Assembly (NCBI GenBank): GCA_964035545.1
Contig: OZ037765.1
Coordinates: forward strand, 35,415,504 to 35,479,503
Source: Bugula neritina
Lineage: Eukaryota > Bryozoa > Gymnolaemata > Cheilostomatida > Bugulidae
Reading direction: 5' to 3'
Length of the DNA: 64,000 nucleotides
Shown: positions 2,036 through 63,088 of the stretch, piece by piece
Layout: the number at the start of each line of letters is the position of its first letter
How positions within the stretch are numbered: position 1 is the stretch's first letter
Notes under the pieces: model-generated
What the model saw: only the letters and a program-made list of their open reading frames with translations
The model's database searches: none
What the model was told of the DNA's origin: nothing
Program-made: the position numbers and the translations under genes

Positions 2036-4809
2036 ACAGTGTACACTATACCCTACAGAGCAAAAGCCTCTATATCTGGGGGAGGGGGGTGTGTAGAGCT
2101 AAGCACACAAACTTAGTTACCATTGTGTACAATCACTGTGTACAATGTACATATACCTAGGCGCAGGTAAACCCTTATCTCTCAGCTCACCTCTGATCAC
2201 TGATAGTGCTGGAAAATAAATAGGCAAATGCTGTAGTCACTTGTTTCATTTGTGGCCACAGCGCTGGCCCTAGCTACAAGTGACTACAGCGGGACTATCA
2301 GCTGCTCAGTGTCTGCCACTCAGGTATTTGCGCTGATTCTATCAAAAGCCATGTTCAGTTGGAAGGTTGACTCTGTCAGTGAAGTCTACTTGTCAGATCT
2401 AACTCTTCCAGCTTACCGCGGCTTCAATACTGACTTCTCTACTACCACTACCAGCTAGTTACACAACATGGTTATCCTTAGCATTCAGTGAACCAGTGTA
2501 ATGGTTGCCATGTTTTGCCAGTTACCTCCCTGTTACTAAGGGATATTTGATAACATCTGTGATTGTGTTTAAACACTGCTTGATTTAAAATGTGTGTCAT
2601 CATCGTATGTTCAGCGTCTCCAGTGACTTAGAAGGCTAATTTAGAGCCACAAAACTTGAATAGGTCAGTATGAATGCGCATCTTTTTAATGGAGATTAGC
2701 TTCGCTTTAATTGGACGACAGTTTCATTTGAAGGTCAAAGTTGATGGAGCAGTAATAGCGAGCAGAAGGTGTCCTGTGTTAGATTCACTTCTTTAGTTCT
2801 TGTCACTTGCAGTCACTCTGCTTGTACGTGAGCAATTTCAACGGCAGTGCTCTAGTTTGATGTAGAACCGTGTCGATATCTTTTCAATTTATTATAGCAA
2901 AAACATTGTTAACTATTATATCTTGTTTGCAAGCTACAGGTAACCTAAATATTATGTTTTTAATAGAAGTAGAATTTTCACCAATTCAGTTTTCTGATTT
3001 TATTGATAATAAATAATTAATATTGTAATTATATTATTTGTGTTAGCCTCGCTGTACTCTTTTGAAATTGTGAATGTATTTCCAATTCAACTTTTGTTTG
3101 TAAATTGATGAATAATTGAGTTGACTTTCATCATGTTTATTTTTGTGGAGAGCTTTTTAAAAAAAGGTTTGTTTATAGTTTATCAATTCTTAGTAACTGT
3201 ACGGTTTCAGTTTGCTGGCATTTCTACTTGTACCAGTAGTTGTTGTACTAGATCTAGTAGTTGTACGGTCACTATGAGAAATTAGCGTCCTCGTTCACAT
3301 TGGATCTTTAAAACTAGTATTTCTACTAGTAGTAGTACTAGATTGAACTTCTGCGCTCTTCTCTCTTAAGACTAAGTTTGTATTGCTCAGTTATAAAGGT
3401 TCGGGTTCATCATGATCATAAAATAAGATTGAAATTAATTTAAAACGTATGGCATAGCCTTAGGTAATATTTGAAACTAATGCTTAAAGTAATACTAATA
3501 ATAAATCTATTATAATTTGTATAAATTAAATTTAATGTTACATTTGCATTCCACTAGAATATGGTACTAATTTTGTAGCATAGTGAATATGTAGCTGTAT
3601 TTTTTATAGATTCTATAGCACTAACTCCGTAGTCACTCATTTAATCTAGCTAGACTGGGGAAGGGGTGTTTATTTCAACACTTTAGTAGTTTACTATACA
3701 TTTAGGTAAAGGGCTGGCAGCTGGGACTAGGTTAGTTGACACAAACCACAGTTGAAGTAAGACTGGCTAGCAGTTTGTTATCTTAGGTAGGGTGTTTACA
3801 AGCCTTCCTCTTATCACTATTCAAACTAAGTAACCTAGTCGACTCACTATACCAACTCACTTATCGCCTCTCCTCTCTATAAAGTGGTTTTCTGTTGGAC
3901 GAAGCTGGCAAACATTTTCTCATATTCCTCCCGCCATGTGCCACATCATGGCGTGTGAACTAGCCCAGAGGGTGTGTACACAAGCACGATCACTGCTAGT
4001 AGATTGTGTCATTCTGCTTCGGAGCTAGGGAAGGTGCAGACGTTACTGCGTGCAGCAGACGACACTAGCAGACGCAACGTCACGGCGGGCAGTAGACTGT
4101 AGGGCAGTGGAGACGTTGGAACTCCTCATTGTACAAATAGATGAGATTCAACTCCTCCAACTGCTGTACGTCTGCATAATAGCCTGCAATCTCAACACTG
4201 GGCAGCTAAGGGTGGCTGACTAGAGCCCCAGTTCTCACGTGAGTATTAGTTGCTGCAGAAGATCATGAGAGATGCAGAAAGTGGGTCACAATTTATGAAT
4301 AGTGAAAGCAGTGATGGGCTTTAATGTGCATTGACTGTGAGTGAAGGACATTTGATTTTGATGGATCTGTATTTTATAGGCTATTGACTGCAATTAGCAT
4401 ACTATGTGTATCAACTTATTGTGTTATAGTGGTTAGTAGACACAACTGTTGTATTTTTGTATCTATTTAGACCAGAATAAAACTTATTTATTTTAAATAT
4501 TGCATTTGTTGTTATTTGGAGGTAACATTAAAACCCTAAAGCTAATGTTAAGAGTTAGTGAGAGGCTATTGTTCTCTGAAATAGTCTACTTACTGGCTAC
4601 GTGAAGCACACCAGACCAGCTACACACTGCCAGACCAGCTACACGCTGCTAGCTTACTTGTAAACATAGTTTCAATGACATATAAACATTGAAGAACAAG
4701 TTCTAACAGATTGTGTTACCAAAGGTCACTTTGTGCTGCCATACAAAGTCTAATAGTGTCACTGTCTTGGAGCACTTCCAGCTTTACTCTGAGAATAAAC
4801 ATGTCATAT
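2036..4809. other. Unique non-coding stretch
   Basis: No supportable gene. Mostly AT-rich unique sequence with a more GC-rich patch around 3930-4260. On the minus strand, 4092-4207 can be read as 38 codons of ordinary-looking protein ending in TGA, too short to assign. This region lies either in a long SZT2 intron or upstream of a separate locus. Confidence 0.5.
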
Positions 4810-4825
4810 CTACAGGCCATGCATT

Positions 4826-5585
4826 GTGTGTGTGTGTGTGTGTCAGCAATCCCTCGTGTGACGAGTATGATGTCTGCTTGCAAGCTTTAGTCTGTGCCGT
4901 GATCCGTAATCCGTTCCAGTTCGAAAATCCGTAAAATCCTACTAGAGGTTGTGAGTTCTGAGGTGACTCACAAGCCCAATTCGAGATCGGCATAATTTGC
5001 CACAGTGAGGACAAATGTTACTAGAGTCAGTCACTGGTGGGTGTGTAACAGAGCATAACTCCCTGCTTTTCCTTAACAACCGTTTGTGCTCTCGTTTTTG
5101 GCGTTGTTGTTGTTCAAAAATCGCTGTCCCTTGATGCACAACAGTTCTCCAATTTTTTCTGTCCAAGGCCTGAACTTCCCAGGTCTGTGGTCGAATGAAA
5201 CACTGCTTAAGGCTTTCGTGTAAAGTGTCTTTATACCTTTTCCTCTGACCACCCTGTGAGCGATTTCCAGTGTTCAGCTCAGAGTACATGATCTTTTTTG
5301 GTAGCCGGTTATCATCCATTCTTACCACATGGCCAGACCACTTCAGTTGTCTCTTCACAATCATGGTAGTAATACTTGTAGTTTGAGCTTTATCCAGGAC
5401 ACTGTTAGTAGTCTGCCTGTCTTGCCATTTGACTCCGAGGATTCGCCTGAGACTGCGGTTGTGAAATTTCTCGAGGGACAGCAGGTTGTGGCTGTAGGTT
5501 ACCCAAGTTTCAGAGGCATAAAGTAGTGTCGGGAGAACAATGGCTTTGTATACTTTTAGTTTGGTCTGTCTGTCTGTCTGTCTCT
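4826..5585 (-). mobile_element. 5'-truncated non-LTR retrotransposon (LINE) copy
   Basis: The copy is on the minus strand. Its 3' end carries a (CA)n tail, seen as (tg)n at 4826-4845 on the plus strand. The flanking 16-mer ctacaggccatgcatt at 4810-4825 is found again beside the truncated 5' end, where it starts the array at 5586. This is most simply a target-site duplication. Only the end of the reverse-transcriptase ORF is present. Confidence 0.75.
4942..5565 (-). pseudogene. LINE ORF2 C-terminal fragment
   Basis: An open minus-strand stretch of about 208 codons without frameshift, ending at a TAG at 4942. It shows the hallmarks of the C-terminal end of animal LINE ORF2 proteins: an ALPTLLYASETW-like segment (here IVLPTLLYASETW), then LKWSGHVVRMDD, then GGQRKRYKDTL, and a terminal C2H2-like finger (CPHCGKLC then H-x3-H near RTH). 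The catalytic reverse-transcriptase core and the endonuclease are missing, so the copy is dead. The clade is not assigned. Confidence 0.8.
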
Positions 5586-7840: not shown

Positions 7841-10800
7841 CTGTTTCCCATGGACAAGAGATGTGTGACTGTACTAGTAACTCTAGACCATCTCCTCAAG
7901 TTCTGTACTCCAGTTAACCGAACCTCAATGTCAAGGTCAGTTGTCCCCCTCTCCACCACTGTGCACTCCCTCCCCCTCTCCACCACTGTGCACTCCCTCC
8001 ACCTCTCCACCACTGTGCACTCCCTCCACCTCTCTACTCTACCTCTAAGTGTGCTATATACTATACAGAGTACACTATATATTATATTAGTATATATTAT
8101 ATTAGTATATATTATATTAGTATATATTATATTAGTATATATTATATTAGTATATATTATATTAGTATATATTATATTAGTATATATTATATTAGTATAT
8201 ATCACACTCTGTAGCTCTCTGGTATCCGGGAGATTAGACAGACAGTCAGTGAGTGATGAGGGAGACGTCCCTCATGATGTCACCAGAGTGGAGGAGATCC
8301 CCTTCGTCTTCTCCATCATGGAGCTGCTGCCTGTGTGTCAGCAGACGGAGATTATCCTCCCCACCTACCACGTCTCTAGGGGTAAGTATCCTCCCCACCT
8401 ACCACGTGTCTAGAGGTAAGTCTCTGTATCTTCCCCACCTACCACGTGTCTAGGGGTAAGTATATGAATACATTTAGTAGTTATAAAATACACATTAGTT
8501 TAAATGTTACTCTGATGTTGATGGTAGATGTTGATAAACCAGTACATATATTAGGAGATAAGTTTATATAATCTAGTAATTTCTCATCATTGTATCAAGT
8601 GTTTAGTGTATTGTGTACTACTAGTAGCTTATACCCCCCTCTCTATGCTCTAATATTCACTACACCCCCTCTCTGCTGTAATATTCACTACACCCCCCTC
8701 TCTGCTGTATATTCACTACACCCCCCTCTCTATGCTGTAATATTCACTACACCCCCTCTCTCTATTGCAGACCTCAGCAGTTCTGTGAAGACCCCCCGCA
8801 GCACATCCACCACTTCCACAAGTGCGGGGGAGATAACTAACAACATCCTGTTCAAGCACCTCCTCTACGAGTTGGAGAAACACCCCGGAGCTCATGAGAT
8901 GGAACTCACTCCAGACGAGTACGAGAAGTTCATGAAGCAGGTGGTAATATACGTACTCTACTGGTAATATACGTACTCTCTACTGGTAATATACGTACTC
9001 TCTACTAGTAATATACGTACTCTCTACTAGTAATATACGTACTCTCTACTAGTAATATACGTACTCTCTACTAGTAATATACGTACTCTCTACTGGTAAT
9101 ATACGTACTCTACTAGTAATATACGTACTCTCTACTAGTAATATACGTACTCTCTACTAGTAATATACGTACTCTACTAGTAATATACGTACTCTACTGG
9201 TAATATACGTACTCTCTACTAGTAATATACGTACTCTCTACTAGTAATATACGTACTCTCTACTAGTAATATATGTACTCTCTACTGGTAATATACGTAC
9301 TCTCTACTAGTAATATACGTACTCTCTACTAGTAATATACGTACTCTCTACTGGTAATATACGTACTCTCTACTGGTAATATACGTACTCTCTACTAGTA
9401 ATATACGTACTCTCTACTGGTAATATACGTACTCTCTACTGGTAATATACGTACTCTCTACTAGTAATATACGTACTCTCTACTAGTAATATACGTACTC
9501 TCTACTGGTAATATACGTACTCTCTACTAGTAATATACGTACTCTACTAGTAATATACGTACTCTCTACTGGTAATATACGTACTCTCTACTAGTAATAT
9601 ACGTACTCTCTACTAGTAATATACGTACTCTCTACTGGTAATATACGTACTCTCTACTAGTAATATACGTACTCTCTACTAGTAATATACGTACTCTCTA
9701 CTAGTAATATACGTACTCTCTACTAGTAATATACGTACTCTCTACTAGTAATATACGTACTCTACTAGTAATATACGTACTCTCTACTAGTAATATACGT
9801 ACTCTACTAGTAATATACGTACTCTCTACTAGTAATATACGTACTCTCTACTGGTAATATACGTACTCTCTACTGGTAATATATGTACTCTCTACTAGTA
9901 ATATACGTACTCTCTACTAGTAATATACGTACTCTCTACTGGTAATATACGTACTCTACTAGTAATATACGTACTCTCTACTAGTAATATACGTACTCTA
10001 CTAGTAATATACGTACTCTCTACTAGTAATATACGTACTCTCTACTGGTAATATACGTACTCTCTACTGGTAATATATGTACTCTCTACTAGTAATATAC
10101 GTACTCTACTGGTAATATACGTACTCTACTAGTAATATACGTACTCTCTACTAGTAATATACGTACTCTCTACTAGTAATATACGTACTCTACTGGTAAT
10201 ATACGTACTCTCTACTAGTAATATACGTACTCTCTACTAGTAATATACGTACTCTCTACTAGTAATATACGTACTCTCTACTAGTAATATACGTACTCTA
10301 CTAGTAATATACGTACTCTCTACTAGTAATATACGTACTCTCTACTAGTAATATACGTACTCTACTGGTAATATACGTACTCTCTACTAGTAATATACGT
10401 ACTCTACTAGTAATATAGCCTCTGCTCTGTGCAGGTTGAACACCGTCCGAGAGACGAGTCTCCCTCTGTCCCTCCCGTACCATTCGAGTGGAATAGTGCT
10501 GAGAATAGCCCTAGTTCTACTGCCCAGCAGGCCGGCACTCCTCTGTCGGCTCCCAACACAGCTCGCAGGTACAGAGTATTACATTACTTACACTTTCCAC
10601 TCTACTCTATACTCTACTCTATACTCTACTCTATACTCTACTCTATAATCTACTCTATACTCTACTCTATACTCTACTTTATACTCTATACTCTACTTTA
10701 TACTCTATACTCTACTCTACTCTACTCTACTCTACTCTACTCTACTCTACTCTACTCTACTCTACTCTACTCTACTCTACTCTACTCTACTCTACTCCAC

Positions 10801-50994: not shown

Positions 50995-53833
50995 TTTTAA
51001 TTAGTGTATTTAAAATTAAATTGCTTGCATTTACCATGAAATTAATACTAAAAAATAATGTAACGTGAAAAGGAAACTCAAACTAATACTGATCGGAAAC
51101 CAAACTAAAGAATAAAATTCTGACTCGCTGACGAAGTATAGTTGGTTTTCTCACAGCATTGCCATGGTTTTGTCTTCAAGAGAACCACTTTAAAGTTAAA
51201 AAATATTGCCTAAACTTTAGTAAATAATAAATAAAAAATAATGTTGATGTTTTCTATTTGTCTGTAAAGTTACAACAAGCCTAGCTAAAGGGTTAAAGTT
51301 CAATAAAGCAAATAGTTTCTTCTTTTTGAGACAACTCCAATATTGCAACGTTGCTTTTATGTGGCCTTGACTGTAGTTGAAAACACGATTTTGCGTACAA
51401 AGAGAGTGAAACGTACCACCGTACGATATTTTTCTTTCGATTATTGAAATAAGGCCATTTTATGATACAATTTTCATACATTTACTATTACTATTAATTA
51501 GTATTAGTATTGGTAAATTACTATTGGTATTAGTATTACTATTACTATTAGTATTAATATTTACTTCTAGTTCTAGCCATAACAATTACAGTAAGTCAAT
51601 AGCTATAATAAGCGATACTAAATTGAAATAATCATTATGGGAACATTGATAATATTAATAATAATAAATTTATATTTATAATCATAATGATAATGATAAT
51701 CATAATGATACTATAAAGTATAATCATAATGGTAATTGATTATGATAATACTAATAGTACTAATACTAATAGTAAAAGCAATACTAATACTTATACTAAT
51801 AGTAATGCTAATTACTAATACTAATGTCTAATAGTAATACTAATACTAATAGTAATAGTGTTCAATTAGGGAATTTTCCCGATAATAAATTATTATCATT
51901 ATCATTAGGATAATTTTACCAACATTTTAATTTCATTTTATTTTATATATAATATTAATAATGATAATCATAATAATCATTATATTATTTTATTATATAA
52001 TAATCACTTACCACTTTGACTTTCACTATCAGCCATCGTCATCAGGATAGATACTCATAGTCATAGTCATACTGATACTGATACTAATTCACTAATACTA
52101 ATAGTAATAACTAATAAGTAATATTTTTTATTAATTGTAAAACCTAAAATCATTATTATAATCTATGGGCATGGGTATGGATAAGTATATGAAATCGGTC
52201 ATCATCATCATGATTATCGTTGCCATTATGATAGAGTGATAATGATTATGATTATTCAGATAGTGATTTACATTATCATTATCATAATTATAATTCTAAA
52301 TTAATAATTATAAATTGCCTCAGTTAAAGTAGGACTTACGCAGCAACTAGAATGTCTACAGGGAAGCCTCTAGCTACAATTTATATTACACCAGGCCAGG
52401 GTTAGCACTTGTTACAGCATTTGCTGTAATTTATGATAACTAATAGTAATAATGATACTAATACTTAAAGTTTTTTCTCATAGTTACCTTGTTTTTCGTT
52501 CTAAATTTCTAGTTATGCTGTTATTGTGATTATCCGTATAGCTATGATAAATATTCTCTTCTTTATTTTTCTAGCAATTTATGTATCTTCCTCTACATTT
52601 CATTTGCAATTCTGGTAAGTTATAATATGGCAGAAGTCCGTATTATTATCCCTGGAACTTAACTTAGTTACAATCTATGGGAAATCACTATTATAATCAA
52701 CATTCACTTAAAGTAATTAAAGGTTTGTTTTAGCACTCATTGACCTTCTATGATTTCTATGGTGCCCTAGTGTCTAGGTGCCATCAGATTGTTACTGTTC
52801 AATTATTTCTCAATCTTTTCATAACTTCAATGTTTTTGTTGAAATTCAATGGGAAACTTATCTAAACTTGTTTGTATTGCTGTTGAGGATTGGTTGACTA
52901 GGATCAACATTTGCTGTCCTACTGCAATACCAATTGTATGATTAGTCAGTATAAGTGTTGCTAACCAAACAGCTCATCATGATGGTCGCTGTATCTCAAG
53001 TCCTATCAACATTACAACTTTAACCCAACATGTAGTATATTTTCTTGGCTTGTCTGTAAACAGCTAGCGGTAGTGCCTTAGTATATTCATGCTGATGTTG
53101 CAATATAAATAGTTTATTGCTGTCATTAGATGTGGTGGAAATTTCTAAACATTTTACAAGATAATTTGCGATAATGTTGCCTTTATATCGGAACATATTT
53201 ATGTCTTCAACTACTTTGGTATAGATGAAATGTTATTCTATGCAGCAGTGTATCATGTCACATGTGGCTGCTGTATTTTGTTTTACTAAAAAGGCTGTTG
53301 AGAAGATCACAAAAGTTTAGACTAGATTATGCAGGGCAGTCTCAGTATTTTCCCATTCTATTTAAACATCTAAACATATGCAGTTTGATGCATGCTTGTA
53401 GAAAAAAAAAATTTATGTTTCTTTTCTTATTCATTAAAAATAAATTATGACATGCAAGGAAAGAATTGACACCCAACATTACATATTACAATATTAATAT
53501 ATTCTCAAAAGACTCATACTAATGGCATTATTCGCTTTACCAATGTGACTATCATATAGGTGAATATATAGCATGAAGATCTTCTGATATTGCTTAATGG
53601 TAGTATTACTATTAGTAGAGTAGAGTTTCTCTCTGTGTTGAGTAACACCAAGTCTGGTCAGTGCTGAATGTTTTGTCCTAATGAAGGTTACATGACTATC
53701 CTGATATGATGACATGCCAACAGGAAGTAATGTACATTACTCTCAGCTGTTCATGTCTATGTTGCAGATATACCTCTAAGCATGTAATCTACACACCATA
53801 TTCTGCTGAGGTAGTAGACATGGAAATACTAAA
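50995..53833. other. Divergent intergenic region between ISY1 and B4GALT7
   Basis: ISY1 (-) and the galactosyltransferase (+) start codons face away across 2.8 kb. The region is AT-rich, with low-complexity att/act and aat/gat triplet runs at about 51480-52320. No gene or clear promoter motif is visible. Confidence 0.6.
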
Positions 53834-54954
53834 ATGCCTCGAATACAATGGAAAAGAAACCGGATCGTGCTGATATGCGTCAGCGTTGCTTGTTTTCTTT
53901 TACTCAGTTTGAAATTGCTAGGTTATTCCCTCCTCCATCAGAGAGTTTCTGAAGATAGACTTAGGACTAGTAAAGTATCTTTTACGATCCCGCCCCTTCC
54001 TACTCAGCATAAACTGGCCGTAATAGTTCCGTTTAGAGACAGGTTTGAGGAACTGTTAGAGTTTGTTCCCCATATGCACAGCTTCTTGAAGAATGCCTCC
54101 ATAGCGCATAAGATATACGTAATCAACCAGGTGGACACTCACAGGTTCAACAGAGCCTCCCTAATCAATGTGGGGTATAAGCTGAGTGTACTAGAGTGCG
54201 ATTACCTGGCCATGCATGATGTAGACTTGTTACCTCTCAACCCTCTCCTAGACTACGGCTTCCCTGCAGACCACGTGTTCCACGTCGCCTCTCCCTACCT
54301 CCACCCTATTTATCACTACAAGAAGTTTGTTGGAGGGATTTTACTGCTAACTCACGCTCACTTTCAGCGACTTAATGGATTGTCTAATAGGTACGTGTGC
54401 ATTACTCTGTGTACATTACTATGTGTACATTACTCTGTGTGTACATTACTCTCTGTACATTACTATATATATACATTACTCTCTGTACATTACTCTGTAT
54501 ACATTACTCTGTGTACATTACTCTCTGTACATTACTCTGTATACATTACTCTGTATACATTACTCTCTGTACATTACTCTCTGTACATTACTCTCTGTAC
54601 ATTACTCTGTCTTCATTCAGGTACTGGGGATGGGGTAGAGAAGATGACGAGTTCTATGTACGTATGAAGGAAGCAGACCTGACTATTCTCCGCCCAGACC
54701 TTGAGAAGGTCACCACTGGCTATAAAACATTTCGCCACATTCACGACCGGAAACGTCGCCCCAGGGACAACAAACGTTACGGCAATCAGGGACCCTCCGG
54801 GTCCCACAGGGACAGAAAAACTGGATTAGCTGATGTAGATTTTGATTTAATAAGCAAACACAGGATTGTTATTGAGAATTCGCCAGCAACTATATACAAT
54901 GTTGAGTTACAATGTGATGTTACAGATACCCCTTGGTGTGATGCTCCTACCTAG
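53834..54954 (+). CDS. B4GALT7: Xylosylprotein beta-1,4-galactosyltransferase (B4GALT7 type)
   Basis: Predicted Golgi type II enzyme that adds the first galactose to xylose in the glycosaminoglycan-protein linker, using UDP-galactose and Mn2+. Two exons, 53834-54390 and 54621-54954, with matching phase, give 296 aa (human B4GALT7 is 327). A short basic tail is followed by a hydrophobic anchor (about residues 10-28, IVLICVSVACFLLLSLKLLG). Family motifs: VIVPFRDRFEELLEF, NQVDTHRFNRASLINVGY, the metal-binding DVD in MHDVDLLPLN, KKFVGGILLLTHAHF, and across the splice site YWGWGREDDEFYVRM. These are the B4GALT signatures, and the HDVDLLPLN form fits B4GALT7 rather than B4GALT1-6. The upstream ATG at 53820 is in another frame. 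Confidence 0.93.
54391..54615 (+). repeat. 14-bp array in the B4GALT7 intron
   Basis: About 15 copies of tgtacattactctg beginning within 10 bases of the donor (AATAG then gtacgtgtgcattactctg). The first unit overlaps the donor, so this may be a weak donor-derived case. Confidence 0.85.
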
Positions 54955-57303: not shown

Positions 57304-60300
57304 TTATATTATAGAACATGAGTTCCATATTCTATATAACATGGTAGAGCCAACGGACTCTGGTTCTTTCTCTCCTTCTATCTGAGTAGCTCCTTGATGG
57401 ATATCTGTACCAGAAACTCCGTTGTATCCAGGAAACAGGTAGAGTTTCCTTTCATGAGAGAGAGTGTCACTAGCATCTACCAGCTGTCCAGTTAGAATGT
57501 TCTTCGTTCTCTTACAATATTTGCTGATTCTGTGTTGAACCTGTAATAATATTTTCTAACAGTATCTAGTATATAGAATATGTAACATGTTTTAACAATA
57601 TTATATAATATATAGAATATGTAACATAATCTAACAGTATCTAGTATATAGAATATGTAACATACTCTAACAGTATCTAGTATATAGAATATGTAACATA
57701 TTCTAACAGCATCTAGTATATAGAATATGTAACATGTTTTAACAATATTATATAATATATAGAATATGTAACATAATCTAACAGCATCTAGTATATAGAA
57801 TATGTAACATGTTTTAACAATATTATATAATATATAGAATATGTAACATAATCTAACAGCATCTAGTATATAGAATATGTAACATACTCTAACAGTATCT
57901 AGTATATAGAATATGTAACATAATCTAACAGTATATAGTATATAGAATATGTAACATAATCTAACAGTATATAGTATATAGAATATGTAACATAATCTAA
58001 CAGTATATAGTATATATAATATGTAACATACTCTAACAGTATCTAGTATATAGAATATGTAACATACTCTAACAGTATCTAGTATATAGAATATGTAACA
58101 TAATCTAACAGTATCTAGTATATAGAATATGTAACATAATCTAACAGTATCTAGTATATAGAATATGTAACATACTCTAACAGCATCTAATATATAGAAT
58201 ATGTAACATAATCTAACAGTATATAGTATATAGAATATGTAACATAATCTAACAGCATCTAGTATATAGAATATGTAACATAATCTAACAGTATATAGTA
58301 TATAGAATATGTAACATAATCTAACAGCATCTAGTATATAGAATATGTAACATGTTCTAACAATAGCTTCACAATATCCCCAGCCTGTAAACTTTCATGC
58401 AGTTATAGCTTAGCCGATTAAAATTTCAATCATATACATGCTATTGGTTCACAGGAATATCAGTAACAAATACCAAAATGACTAACAACTGAAATATTAA
58501 AAACTAAAACTTAATCTCATATAATATTTCTTAAGCTTTTAGCTTTCAATTATTTTCCAAGTATCTGTTATGTTTTGATGAAACTTTTTGTATCATGTAA
58601 CACATTTACCGCTTTGTAGATCTCATGCATATCACGATGACAGGCATGTCTGTAGAGAGTTCTGACCAGACATCTGACTAGTAGAGAACCGTACACAGGA
58701 TGTCTTATAGACACATAGGCTATAACAAAGTGAAAACTCTAATATACTATATATGGTACATCATCAGTACTCTCAGATATGTACATATGTTCTTATGCTT
58801 TACCACCTAATTTATACAACTGATAGTATGCTATAGGCATATATATGAACCCACTGTAAATATTGCAACAACAAAAAATACTACTGAGGTAGTCACAAAG
58901 TGAATAGCTTGATCGATTTTTTTTACAAATTTACACTGTGTCACAAAACTCTATAGTTCCAAGGTAAACCAACATTAAAATCACATACAAAAGACTACTT
59001 TTGAAGAACAGTTAAGATACTCACAATCAAAGCTGGCTTTTATAACAAACAGGTTTTCACAGTGAAGTGTCTCAATTCCATCTCCTTTATAATATCCACC
59101 AGAGAAGTACTTTGGAGGAGTGAATACTTCTGGTTGAGTCACACTCTCATCTTCATCACCAAATTCATTGTCTCCTCCTGTCTCTACATCCTTGTGTCCT
59201 TTCTTACCCAAATCTTTTCTACCTGTTTACCATGGAATATTGAAGCAGTTATTGTTAAGCAGCAGTTGAATAGTACCAGTAAAAGTGCACTGTCTGTGAC
59301 TGTATTTCAAATAAATACAACATATCAACTCAATAGAAACTCACCACCACTACAAGCTTGGATAACAACCAGTTTAGGTTTATCAGCAACCACTGGGTTC
59401 TGAGGAACAGATAGTACGTCATACAGGTCTGTCAGTTTCACCAACTTTCCATCTGAACCATAGACATGACCCTCAACTCCATGAGATCCAATAAACAGGA
59501 AGAACATCCCATAGTCTGCATTCTTCACATCATTCACTTCTTGCTTTACTGTTTCCCACATCTCCTGTGGTTACATTCAGTATAATGTGAAAACTTTGTC
59601 AGCAGCCAAGTGAAGAAAATAAATATCATTTAATGAATCATTCTGTTTGTTGCAAATTAGTCTGCATATTAAGAGAATTGAGTTTTTCATAATATTTAGG
59701 ACTTTTCTGATTTGAAGTATCCCTCATCAAATTCTTTCTTTTCCAGTAATTTGTTGTGAAATAACCACTGTATGCGTAAAATCTAAAGATGAGATTTTGC
59801 TAATTGAAGTTCATTTTGCATGTTTCCTACCAAGATATCATGATTGAGAAGGTTCAAATGAGACATTTTAATGTAACCATGGTATGTGTAAAATAACAAA
59901 GTATACTATAATAAATATTTAGCTATCGTTTTTTTCATTTATAAAACACAATGTGTCAAAACCTGAGCAGAGAGGTCCTTTTTGGTTACAACATCAAACT
60001 GAAAGGAGTTCAACAAATGTTCTAAATTTTTAACATCTACATCAGAGCCCTGTCTATAATAATCTGGATGAGCTTTCACTTCTTTGTTGTTGATTAAAAC
60101 AGCTCTGCCTCTTCTCCTAGTCATAGGAAACACCTGGATGTTGTAGATATAAGTAAATTAAAACTCAATACACAAAATCGCAAAGCTGACAAAACGTATG
60201 CAGACGGTTGATTCAAAATACTATTCCTTGTAGTCTTTTCAAAATTTTGCTCACTTTATCAGAGTTCAAGAACAAGTCTGTAGTTTTCTGTTTAGATGTA

Positions 60301-60442
60301 GGAACAGGTGTCTGGTGAAGAAAAAGTTTCTTTCTGTCAGCATCAGCTTTGGGCACCAGATAGTCATCATCATCAGACAAATCACTTTCTTCATGTTCCT
60401 CACTGGGCTGACTTGATGTAGTCGGTGTAGTTGTAAATAGCC
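57304..60442 (-). CDS. Caspase part of the fusion gene
   Basis: Linker exon 60442-60255 holds an acidic DLSDDDDYLVPKAD stretch. The p20 core starts at MTRRRGRAVLINN (RG as in the caspase S1 arginine position), then the QGSDVDVKNLEHLL block, catalytic His in FIGSHG (about residue 821) and catalytic Cys in QACSGG (about 864). The inter-subunit linker (exon 59222-59025) is unusually rich in Asp/Glu (GDEDESV), giving possible processing sites. The p10 has SYVSIRHPVYGSLLV, with the substrate-binding S-x-R, and ends with YLFPGYN plus an extra 40 residues. All residues needed for activity appear present. Confidence 0.88.
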
Positions 60443-60518
60443 CTAAAATAACTAATGACTCTACTACATGTATCTAATAACTGTTGTGTTTACATCGAGG
60501 TTATATTATAATTTAGAG

Positions 60519-60604
<86 letters not shown>

Positions 60605-63088
60605 TCCGGGCATGCGTGGTGTTACGCTAGTTGGTTAAACTCGTGCTTGAGAATTTTAGTTCGATTTAAATAAATTATATATTTGATTTGATTGCAAATT
60701 ATATTTGATTGCTCATTCAAATCTTACAATATAACAATAACTAATTTGTTTTTATATTTTAAATAGCAAATAATTTGGTGATACAAGTTTTTGCAGTTTG
60801 AAAAGTTGAGTAAATACCTGATTTATTTTCACCTCTCTTTATAGCATTGTTTTCTTCTTTCAATTTGGTAACATTTGCTTTCAATTCCTTTATTTCAGAC
60901 TCCTTCAAATGAACACCTGAATTCAATCAAAACAATTATACAATAAAGTGTATATTTGAAACATGCTGGAGCAAAAATTTGTGATAAGCTCAAAAATTTG
61001 ATAGTCTTTAATAATTGCTTAGCTAAATATTTAAGAAATTGAAGCATTTAAAAGACCTAATAAACCGGTAAAAACAACTCTATTTGCAGCAATCTGACTT
61101 TGATCTCAATTTCATATTATTCTGATAACCAAATTTTGCTATTAAACTATTCCAACACTAACTTACATGGGTGAACAAAAAGACTCCGAATCTTATCTCC
61201 CCCACAGCGAACTGTCACCATCTTCCTCTGGAACGCCTGATATGGTTTCTCAGTTTGAAAGTCATGACACCATTTGGGAGTTACCTGAACTTTAGGATTA
61301 GATTCACCTTTCAATATGCAGTGTGTACAACTAGACTTGTGAACCATTCTGCTGGCAGGCCAGGAACTTCGAATCTCCTTGGAGATTTTCCTGGTTATAC
61401 TGACCATGTGCTCCCAGCAATCTGTGATTTTCTCTACTGCTCCGGACACTGTAACATCTGCCTTCCTTGAGAGGCCATCATGGACAAGGCGCACCGAGAT
61501 ATCATCAGGAGATATTTTTACACCGTTTTTTCTAACAGTTAAAGAACTTGTTTCATCTGGGAACATATTTAGCACAACAACACTCATCTGTTGGTAGACA
61601 TATTGTGGAATTGAGAGACCTTTGAACATGATCTCAGCATGGAGAATGATGTCTTGATCAGTGGTAAAAGTGTTCTCTATGTAATCAGGGGAGTGGAAGG
61701 GTACAATAAAACAGCTCTTTGATTCCAGATCAACTGGTCCGTAAAGAATGCTGAATTTCTGCAGCAAAGTGACAGCAAGTTGATATGCATCTTCATCAAT
61801 GAATGCTGTCTCAGCTTTGATTAAATATTCAAGAAGTTGGTTCCCCATGATTCCTGCCGACAAGAAAAATTCCATGAAATTATCAAACTGTTCTTTCTCA
61901 AGAAAAGCTCCGTTAGTCAGTAAAAGTGGTTCAAAATTTGCTTGCCGAGTCTGCCAGACTTTTTCATCGTGATTAAACAAGACTGTGAGTAGTTTAGTAA
62001 CTTCCTCAATCTTGTGAAAAATAATCTGGTTCAACTCTTCAATCTCCTTGTACCACAAGACTTTACCACAATCATGCATGTAGGTGAGGATTGTGGTGAG
62101 CTGATCAGGTGTGATACTTCCATCTACTTGCTGCACTGTGCGAAGTATCTCATCAAATGTACTGAATGCTGTTTGTAATCCTAAGACTTTCTCATTCACA
62201 TCTTCCCACAGCTTTGGCAGCACTTTCACAAAATTTTGAGCTGAATTAAAAATGGCAGTTTTCATGACTTCGTATGTTTGATAATTATCTTCTTTTCCAA
62301 CTGAGTAGATATCTTCTTGCAAGAACAGCTCTCTGTGTTGATAGAAGTGCTCTATCTTTGCTATGCTTTGGTCAAGTTGTTTCTCTTCTCTCATGATTTC
62401 ATCTTTCAGTAGATCAGCTGTGCTGGTGAAAGCAGTAGTCAGCTTTGTGAAATTCTCCTCATCAAACTTGTCTTTGTGAGTAAACACAAGTTTTGGTGGT
62501 CCAATGCCAGGGTTTGCCACGTATAAATGAGCCAGCCAATCAAAAGCCAGTCTTCTCACAGCCTCTCTGTCTCCCTTTTCTCGCGCCAGCTGATCATACT
62601 GCTCCATGTTCACCACTACTATCTGGATGCAGTTCTGTTTAAGTGTTAACTGGTAAGTCATGTGGTACACTGGTTGTCCTCCCATGTCAATTAGTCTCAG
62701 AACCGTTTTATTTACTTTCAACTCTTCAACTTTAAAGACTTTAGTTGTTTCATCAACAACAGCCTCAGGTTCACGATTTGTCAGCACTCTCTTTCTCTCT
62801 TCACTCTGCAATGTTCTGATGAGACTTGTCTTCCCTGCCATTGTGTTACCAATCACTGCAATGGTGACTAGTGGAAGACTTTTACCTTCACCTTTAGCAA
62901 GATCTCTGTAGTACTGTCTGATTGCTGGCAATCCTCTGGTGCAGACTTCATAAGGGGGAGTGGTTAGAAACGTGCATCCATCAGCCTTTATCGTTTGCAA
63001 CTCCTTCAAGTTGCAGACTGCCTCGGAAATTGAAGCTAACTTGTTTTTCTGAATATCCAAAGACTGCAGATTTTCTAAGTGTTTCAAA
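57304..63088 (-). CDS. LRR-Roc-COR-caspase fusion protein (5' part outside window)
   Basis: Eight exons with consistent GT-AG sites and phases: 63088-61167, 60916-60818, 60442-60255, 60133-59963, 59564-59345, 59222-59025, 58719-58610, 57540-57304. They give 1047 codons then TAA. Visible order: end of a leucine-rich repeat, Roc GTPase, COR region (to about residue 560), cysteine-rich stretch, coiled coil, acidic linker, caspase p20 and p10. There is no methionine between the COR part and the caspase core where a separate caspase could sensibly begin. Roco proteins are GTP-dependent dimeric switches; caspases cut after Asp in cell death and inflammation. Inference: a sensor-protease in which the Roc-COR dimer brings caspase domains together. 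No transcript evidence is available, so read-through of two genes cannot be ruled out. Confidence 0.82.
57550..58365. repeat. 36-bp minisatellite in the last intron of the fusion gene
   Basis: About 22 copies of a unit containing aacagtatctagtatataga and atatgtaacat. It starts just beyond the acceptor of the final exon. It does not copy a splice site. Confidence 0.88.
60522..60601. repeat. (TA)n microsatellite
   Basis: About 40 uninterrupted TA units in the intron between the coiled-coil and linker exons. Confidence 0.95.
60818..60916 (-). CDS. Coiled-coil exon of the fusion gene
   Basis: A 99-nt exon encoding KESEIKELKANVTKLKEEN, with leucine/isoleucine spacing of a short coiled coil. Both borders are phase 1, joining the COR exon to the caspase linker. 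It may assist dimer formation. Confidence 0.8.
61167..63088 (-). CDS. Roc-COR exon of the fusion gene
   Basis: One large exon. Numbering from its first full codon: LRR remnant LENLQSLDIQKNKLASI (4-20); Roc P-loop GNTMAGKTS (80-88); switch II DMGGQ (134-138), the DxGGQ form typical of Roc; G4 motif THKD (203-206). COR-like helical and winged segments run to about residue 560, with DCGKVLWYKEIEEL near residue 345 matching the COR pattern of an early 'G-x-x-x-W/Y' block. The exon then has a C/H-rich stretch (SSCTHCILKG). The donor is CCAT/gtaagt. The first T completes a codon of an upstream exon, so more LRR sequence is expected beyond 63088. Confidence 0.88.

Follow-up and report, generated by a model that had tools for sequence, protein, structure and literature searches.

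A Roc-COR GTPase joined to a complete caspase in the bryozoan Bugula neritina: a candidate one-piece receptor-protease and its expanded gene family

A gene of Bugula neritina encodes in one predicted protein the end of a leucine-rich repeat (LRR) array, a Roc GTPase domain, a COR domain, a helical and an acidic linker, and a whole caspase, an arrangement that is confirmed at the level of the sequence. It lies on the minus strand of a 64,000 bp stretch of DNA (GenBank assembly GCA_964035545.1, contig OZ037765.1, positions 35,415,504 to 35,479,503), which is called the window here and to which all coordinates without a locus name refer. As far as genomic DNA and protein predictions reach, this Roco-caspase fusion is real, expanded, and conserved in a second bryozoan, Watersipora subatra. 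The protein is read here, with a probability of about 0.6, as a one-piece intracellular receptor-protease built of an N-terminal domain, LRR, Roc, COR, linker and caspase, which would be switched by GTP and activated by pairing. The steps of this mechanism are inferred.

The original prediction had joined eight minus-strand exons in phase between 57304 and 63088, and the splice sites, the phases and the resulting reading of 1042 amino acids plus stop bear this out: AG acceptors and GT donors are present at the exons, the phases are compatible, and the final exon closes with a stop codon. Exon A (61167-63088; 640 codons; acceptor TCCAACTTGCAG, donor GTAAGT) encodes the LRR end followed by the Roc GTPase and COR, with the P-loop GNTMAGKTS (G1) at 62824-62850, the Switch II motif DMGGQ (G3) at 62674-62688 and the guanine-binding motif THKD (G4) at 62470-62481. 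Exon B (60833-60916) encodes a short helical, coiled-coil-like linker and exon C (60255-60442) an acidic linker with ESDLSDDDDY at 60389-60360. Caspase p20 is divided between exon D (59963-60133), in which RQGSD holds the position of the S1-pocket Arg, and exon E (59345-59564), which contains the catalytic His in SHG (59478-59486) and the catalytic Cys in QACSG (59346-59360). The inter-subunit linker and the start of p10 are found in exon F (59025-59222), p10 with YVSIR (58703-58717) in exon G (58610-58719), and the end of p10 (LYLFPG) together with the stop codon in exon H (57304-57540), which is 88% identical in the paralogue L044. All of these features are on the minus strand. Each motif named in the original prediction (P-loop, DMGGQ, THKD, SHG, QACSG and S-x-R) was located in the window protein, and the order given there, with a COR-like region, a coiled coil and a complete caspase (p20 and p10) after Roc, holds.

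An end of exon C at 60222 was dropped for 60255 (GTGAGC donor), the end that the first description had implied, after alignments with paralogues and Watersipora proteins. The model of 1053 amino acids, with exon C extended to 60222, was used for the Pfam scan, the protein searches, the Watersipora alignment and the exon C probes; the 11 residues affected all lie in the linker, and a small number of intron codons may have entered the linker omega values.

In the Pfam scan of the window-encoded protein (1053-amino-acid model), Peptidase_C14 (4.4e-33) and Roc (4.6e-7; 30.5 bits, cut-off 27) were matched. The same scan gave no CARD or DED prodomain, no NACHT or NB-ARC domain and no protein kinase domain; the NTPase is Roc, and COR is followed by a caspase instead of a kinase. 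Across a 27-row alignment (A1), Pfam at E <= 0.01 gave Roc in 27/27 rows, COR-A in 21/27 and COR-B in 2/27. In that alignment A84, K86, T87 and S88 of the P-loop, D134, G136, G137 and Q138 of G3, and T203, H204 and D206 of G4 are invariant, with G80 and G85 nearly so. The closest PDB matches to the window caspase are animal caspases, and its VSIRHP was aligned with VSWRHP of caspase-1. The protein is grouped with the Roco GTPases by a Roc with P-loop, G3 and G4 and a COR directly after it, and with the caspases (C14A) by p20 plus p10, the His/Cys dyad and the S1 residues Arg, Gln and SxR, which have roles in the substrate pocket.

The same exon order recurs across the genome (215.85 Mb in 295 contigs). 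With the window Roc-COR exon as query, 69 exons of 46-100% identity were obtained (69/146 candidates scored); a more distant member as query gave 72 (72/131 scored), 24 of them new. Four further Pfam matches in long frames bring the total to at least 97 distinct Roc-COR exons, and family copies were found on eight chromosomes. A caspase p20 exon of its own lies downstream, on the same strand and within 15 kb, of 96 of the 97, paired one to one at a median distance of 1695 bp and with no other Roc-COR exon between; the remaining Roc-COR exon is followed by an unpaired caspase exon at 15.4 kb, past the 15-kb limit. Among the first 69 Roc-COR exons a caspase exon was found on the opposite strand in none and upstream in one. 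These strand and side counts are a better control than random placement, in which 0.8 of the 69 were paired on average and never more than 4, and which ignores gene clustering. A search of the genome found 133 caspase exons, 37 of them without an upstream Roc-COR exon. For one copy, L023 (G000:C1:33884605-33886431, minus strand), the Roc-COR frame is given as 2363 codons, against about 630-750 in the others from the search with the window exon.

A search of long proteins with the caspase part returned two of 1563 candidates at E <= 1e-3, both from W. subatra. The Watersipora protein P0021 aligns with the window protein at 30% identity over 1077 columns, from LRR to p10. Used as query in a search whose scoring was confined to the 7995 candidates with the most words in common, P0021 gave 17 proteins including itself, 16 of them annotated as Watersipora, and Peptidase_C14 was present in 11 of the 17. 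Within these 11 caspase-bearing proteins the matches at E <= 0.01 were Peptidase_C14 in 11, Roc in 10, LRR_4 in nine, and COR-A and COR-B in two each. In all 11 aligned Watersipora proteins the catalytic His and Cys and the S1 Arg are unchanged, their linkers have an SD core (by script in 8/11, by eye in the other three), and an exon-B-like stretch, recognised by eye, stands after the same Pro-Cys. The Watersipora Roco-caspases are themselves predicted proteins. Genome-wide recurrence of the exon order, together with the alignment of a Watersipora protein over 1077 columns, places the fusion beyond chance.

A neighbouring Roco gene and a caspase gene might still have been wrongly joined by the reading of exons. 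The frame of exon A meets a stop within 20 bases when run into intron 1, metagenome gene calls such as P0001 read past the Roc-COR donor to a stop, and the Watersipora sequences are predictions too, with six of the 17 lacking a caspase. Against such a join, the GT donor after Roc-COR stands at the same codon in 32/32 distinct genes (read by eye at 36 loci, four of them repeats), 96 of the 97 Roc-COR exons are paired on the same strand with no opposite-strand case among the first 69, and in Watersipora the exon-B-like stretch comes after the same Pro-Cys. A wrong join of two genes is therefore judged extremely improbable. An assembly join or a chance join was likewise rejected on the order in 96/97 loci and the Watersipora protein, and the single gene without an assembly join proposed at the outset stands, with the order recurring genome-wide, the donor codon constant and the fusion present in a second species.

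The window gene does not start at 63088 and continues past 64000. At least six upstream exons, recognised by a narrow pattern, are 141-144 bases long and encode two LRRs each, with phase 2 at both ends, which fits the phase-2 start of exon A. Five of them were placed at L009:2606-2746, 3325-3465, 5075-5215, 8324-8464 and 9113-9253, and the sixth at L010:4402-4545. The stretch L010:9343-9582 encodes VWFRHSGEDPP..., matching the N-termini of the Watersipora Roco-caspases P0032 (32% over 74, E 7e-8) and P0030 (34%, E 2e-5) in single comparisons, and is likely to be the N-terminal exon of the window gene. With the upstream exons the gene would span about 25 kb. Between the upstream LRR exons, at L010:2875-4182 on the minus strand, retroelement-like open frames (zinc-knuckle and protease-like, by eye) were seen, apparently in an intron of the window gene.

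To judge from omega, both the Roc-COR and the caspase halves are under purifying selection in the tested pairs. Across 11 paralogue pairs, omega lay between 0.18 and 0.37 in Roc-COR and between 0.16 and 0.57 in the caspase exons, compared over 52-307 codons, where both of the highest figures occurred at dS < 0.07; the linker, computable in 9 pairs, ranged from 0.12 to 1.93. Module exchange or gene conversion between paralogues is likely, because the Roc-COR and p20 trees conflict over L042, L014, L043, L016, L044 and the window gene. The window gene and L042 share 90% DNA identity in the Roc-COR exon and only 60% in the p20 exons, and the p20 data reject a clade of the two (approximately unbiased, AU, p 3e-5). 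L014 groups with L043 and L016 in the Roc-COR tree (96/93); in the p20 tree, where it covers only 42% of the columns, it joins L042 (99/98). A clade of the window gene and L044 was not rejected by the Roc-COR data (p 0.079).

In much of the family the caspase fold might be without Asp-specific protease activity and act as a decoy, an inhibitor or a binding module; cFLIP is a caspase fold of this non-protease kind. Active-site residues were counted with loci of one gene merged and with the Roc-COR-free caspases L001, L002 and L006 left out. Two positions ahead of the catalytic Cys stands a Gln that contributes to binding of the P1 Asp; it is kept in 5/16 genes and replaced in 11/16, by Glu in seven, His in one and Val or Leu in three. 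EVCSG is found in L004, L018, L021, L028, L040 and L041, HACSG in L007, and VAC or LAC in L003, L005 and L008, while L046 (EACSG, TLG) has also lost the catalytic His. Gln-less Roco-linked caspases could have a shifted cleavage specificity or have lost activity. Against a general loss of protease function, the catalytic Cys is kept in 16/16 Bugula genes where visible and the His in 25/26, the same two residues and the S1 Arg do not vary in Watersipora, the caspase exons are under purifying selection in the tested pairs, and the window copy retains SHG, QACSG and SxR in a canonical active site. A family made up largely of non-proteases thus seems quite unlikely.

In the receptor-protease reading the LRR array would sense a ligand or damage, and this would change the nucleotide state of Roc. 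Pairing driven by COR would bring two caspase domains together, which would activate by proximity, process their own linkers, possibly in the acidic linker or between the subunits, and cut substrates, leading to cell death or inflammation. Receptor, platform and initiator caspase, which other animals assemble from several molecules, would in this way be contained in one protein, as a member of a repertoire for innate immunity or self-recognition. It is pairing, or proximity, that activates initiator caspases. Usual caspase sites have a small residue after Asp, which is not so for the residues after Asp in the acidic linker, and the acidic linker as a cleavage site is put forward as an idea only. 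GTP-gated COR pairing would fit this mode of caspase activation together with published Roco dimerisation. Sections of one source describe Roco proteins as dimerising through COR and Roc in a nucleotide-dependent monomer-dimer cycle (PMC6337361). With sensing, GTP switch and death protease on one animal chain, that cycle, which is debated, could become directly readable as caspase activity. Such proteins would also be an additional class of receptor in animal innate immunity, from a phylum with a little-known immune system, and a counterpart in animals of the LRR-Roc-COR-caspase proteins of bacteria.

Several observations weigh against the receptor-protease. In the same sections the GTP-bound Roco is favoured as a monomer and the GDP-bound or empty form as a dimer (PMC6337361), so that the switch might run in either direction. 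The G3 Gln is frequently another residue in Watersipora, where the GTPase cycle may accordingly differ, and P0026 and P0035 of that species stop before most of p10. Besides the six caspase-free proteins found with P0021, a search with the whole window protein (1053-amino-acid model) gave 20 proteins, 0/20 with a caspase domain; 17 of the 20 look like single-exon Roc-COR readings and are mostly metagenomic. In B. neritina an in-frame stop interrupts five or more of the 97 Roc-COR exons, and the 11/16 copies with a replaced Gln may not cut after Asp. In the window copy itself COR-A reaches 21.3 bits and LRR_8 17.7 bits, below the Pfam cut-offs of 35.3 and 27. COR was assigned because of the Pfam matches in the family, where some paralogues are above the cut-off, the support for COR from a PDB profile search, and the fold match of a Roc-COR exon model to LRRK1/2 and the C. 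tepidum Roco across Roc-COR; LRR was assigned because of the upstream cassette exons. Confidence in the Roc-COR model is intermediate (pLDDT 74.8, pTM 0.66), and a Roc-COR-caspase model (Watersipora P0024, alignment A4) is poor (pLDDT 54.5, pTM 0.43), too poor to show the relative placement of the domains.

The caspase may also reside on the same protein and not be switched by Roc-COR. It could then act as a signalling or self-processing unit, setting free an MFHAS1-like Roc-COR scaffold for instance, or serve development, as in polypide regression, and not defence. Several of the Watersipora relatives are named MFHAS1 homologues in the NCBI annotation, the acidic linker and its SD core are conserved and offer a possible site of cleavage or phosphorylation, and family expansion alone is no proof of immunity. 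The LRR cassettes, the 97 or more copies and the module exchange are a better fit to a recognition repertoire than to housekeeping, and an unswitched unit is considered unlikely, though less so than a family of non-proteases.

On the scale of the whole genome, domain searches gave one NACHT match, four CARD and three gasdermin matches, the three gasdermin-like exons all being on C2; domains split by introns are undercounted in these searches. The scarcity of NACHT beside at least 97 Roc-COR exons is suggestive only. It is possible, and advanced here tentatively as something short of an even chance, that in cheilostomes a Roco-caspase repertoire has taken the place of the NLR/inflammasome layer, so that every receptor would act as a GTP-gated "inflammasome" in itself. 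This proposal draws on the at least 97 loci in Bugula, LRR cassettes for recognition, exchanged protease tails, diverged protease specificities (QACSG versus EVCSG and HACSG) and the near absence of NACHT.

Initiator-type caspases are expected to need pairing. The initiator caspases of the apoptosome and inflammasome resemble the window caspase in p20/p10, catalytic dyad and S1 residues; they carry a CARD or DED prodomain where the window protein has LRR-Roc-COR, so that receptor and protease are one chain here. MFHAS1/MASL1, likened by domain order and by the NCBI names, shares the LRR-Roc-COR order and the lack of a kinase, but in the sections used it consists of LRR and RocCOR only, with no caspase (PMC6337361). 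Amphioxus LRR-caspase hybrids carry LRRs and a caspase on one animal protein, and the main text describing them mentions Roc and COR zero times each (PMC2575513, in part). The sea anemone NG1, as presented in portions of PMC5094078, is an animal LRR-Ras/Roc-COR protein whose COR scores low and whose immune domain at the C-terminus is a TIR where the window protein has a caspase. Brown algal ROCOs are LRR-ROC-COR families with phase-2 LRR cassette exons and have been proposed as immune receptors; according to extracts of PMC11378527 they have one LRR per exon, versus two in Bugula, and are mostly without a C-terminal effector, and three carry a peptidase domain, IPR009003, that these extracts do not describe as a caspase.

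The original prediction knew of no described LRR-Roc-COR-caspase protein. This does not hold for bacteria, where such proteins are reported in excerpts of PMC8195603, while an animal version seems undescribed: none was named in the titles and abstract openings listed from open-licence PMC papers. An animal Roco-caspase with an animal-type caspase therefore seems new as far as the searched open literature reaches. A figure legend on sponge NLRs that names CASc (caspase) and COR as domains, which may or may not share a protein, could weaken this claim (PMC12909245).

Bugula hosts bacterial symbionts, and the fusion might have arrived as a unit from bacteria or on symbiont DNA. In the excerpts of PMC8195603, bacterial LRR-AP-GTPase(Roc)-COR proteins are reported with a C-terminal caspase on the same protein and with several paralogues per genome. 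They have at least 24 types of C-terminal domain, against the animal-type caspase, the introns and the at least 97 loci in Bugula (PMC8195603, in part). The introns of the window gene, the spread of the family over eight chromosomes and the animal caspases at the top of the PDB matches argue against such an origin, which would be very surprising. A loose caspase motif was found in 0/82 bacterial Roco open reading frames (D-x-G/A-G-Q/H) in the best 80 of 544 loci; these 80 are relatives of one caspase-free Roco and give no argument against the published bacterial fusions.

Some minor features were recorded as well. On the small contigs C58, C90, C99, C210, C144, C36, C186, C282 and C80, the best Rab-like matches cross several TAA or TAG codons and no TGA, possibly reflecting a ciliate-type code and a ciliate on the sampled colony whose DNA stayed in the assembly, or else introns. 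Within the window gene, a tandem array of short units occupies the last intron at about 57541-58350 and a long AT dinucleotide run lies in intron 2 at about 60516-60600, both seen by eye. A galactosyltransferase-like gene, also recognised by eye, is present on the plus strand at 53810-54954, its open frame entering a short tandem repeat.

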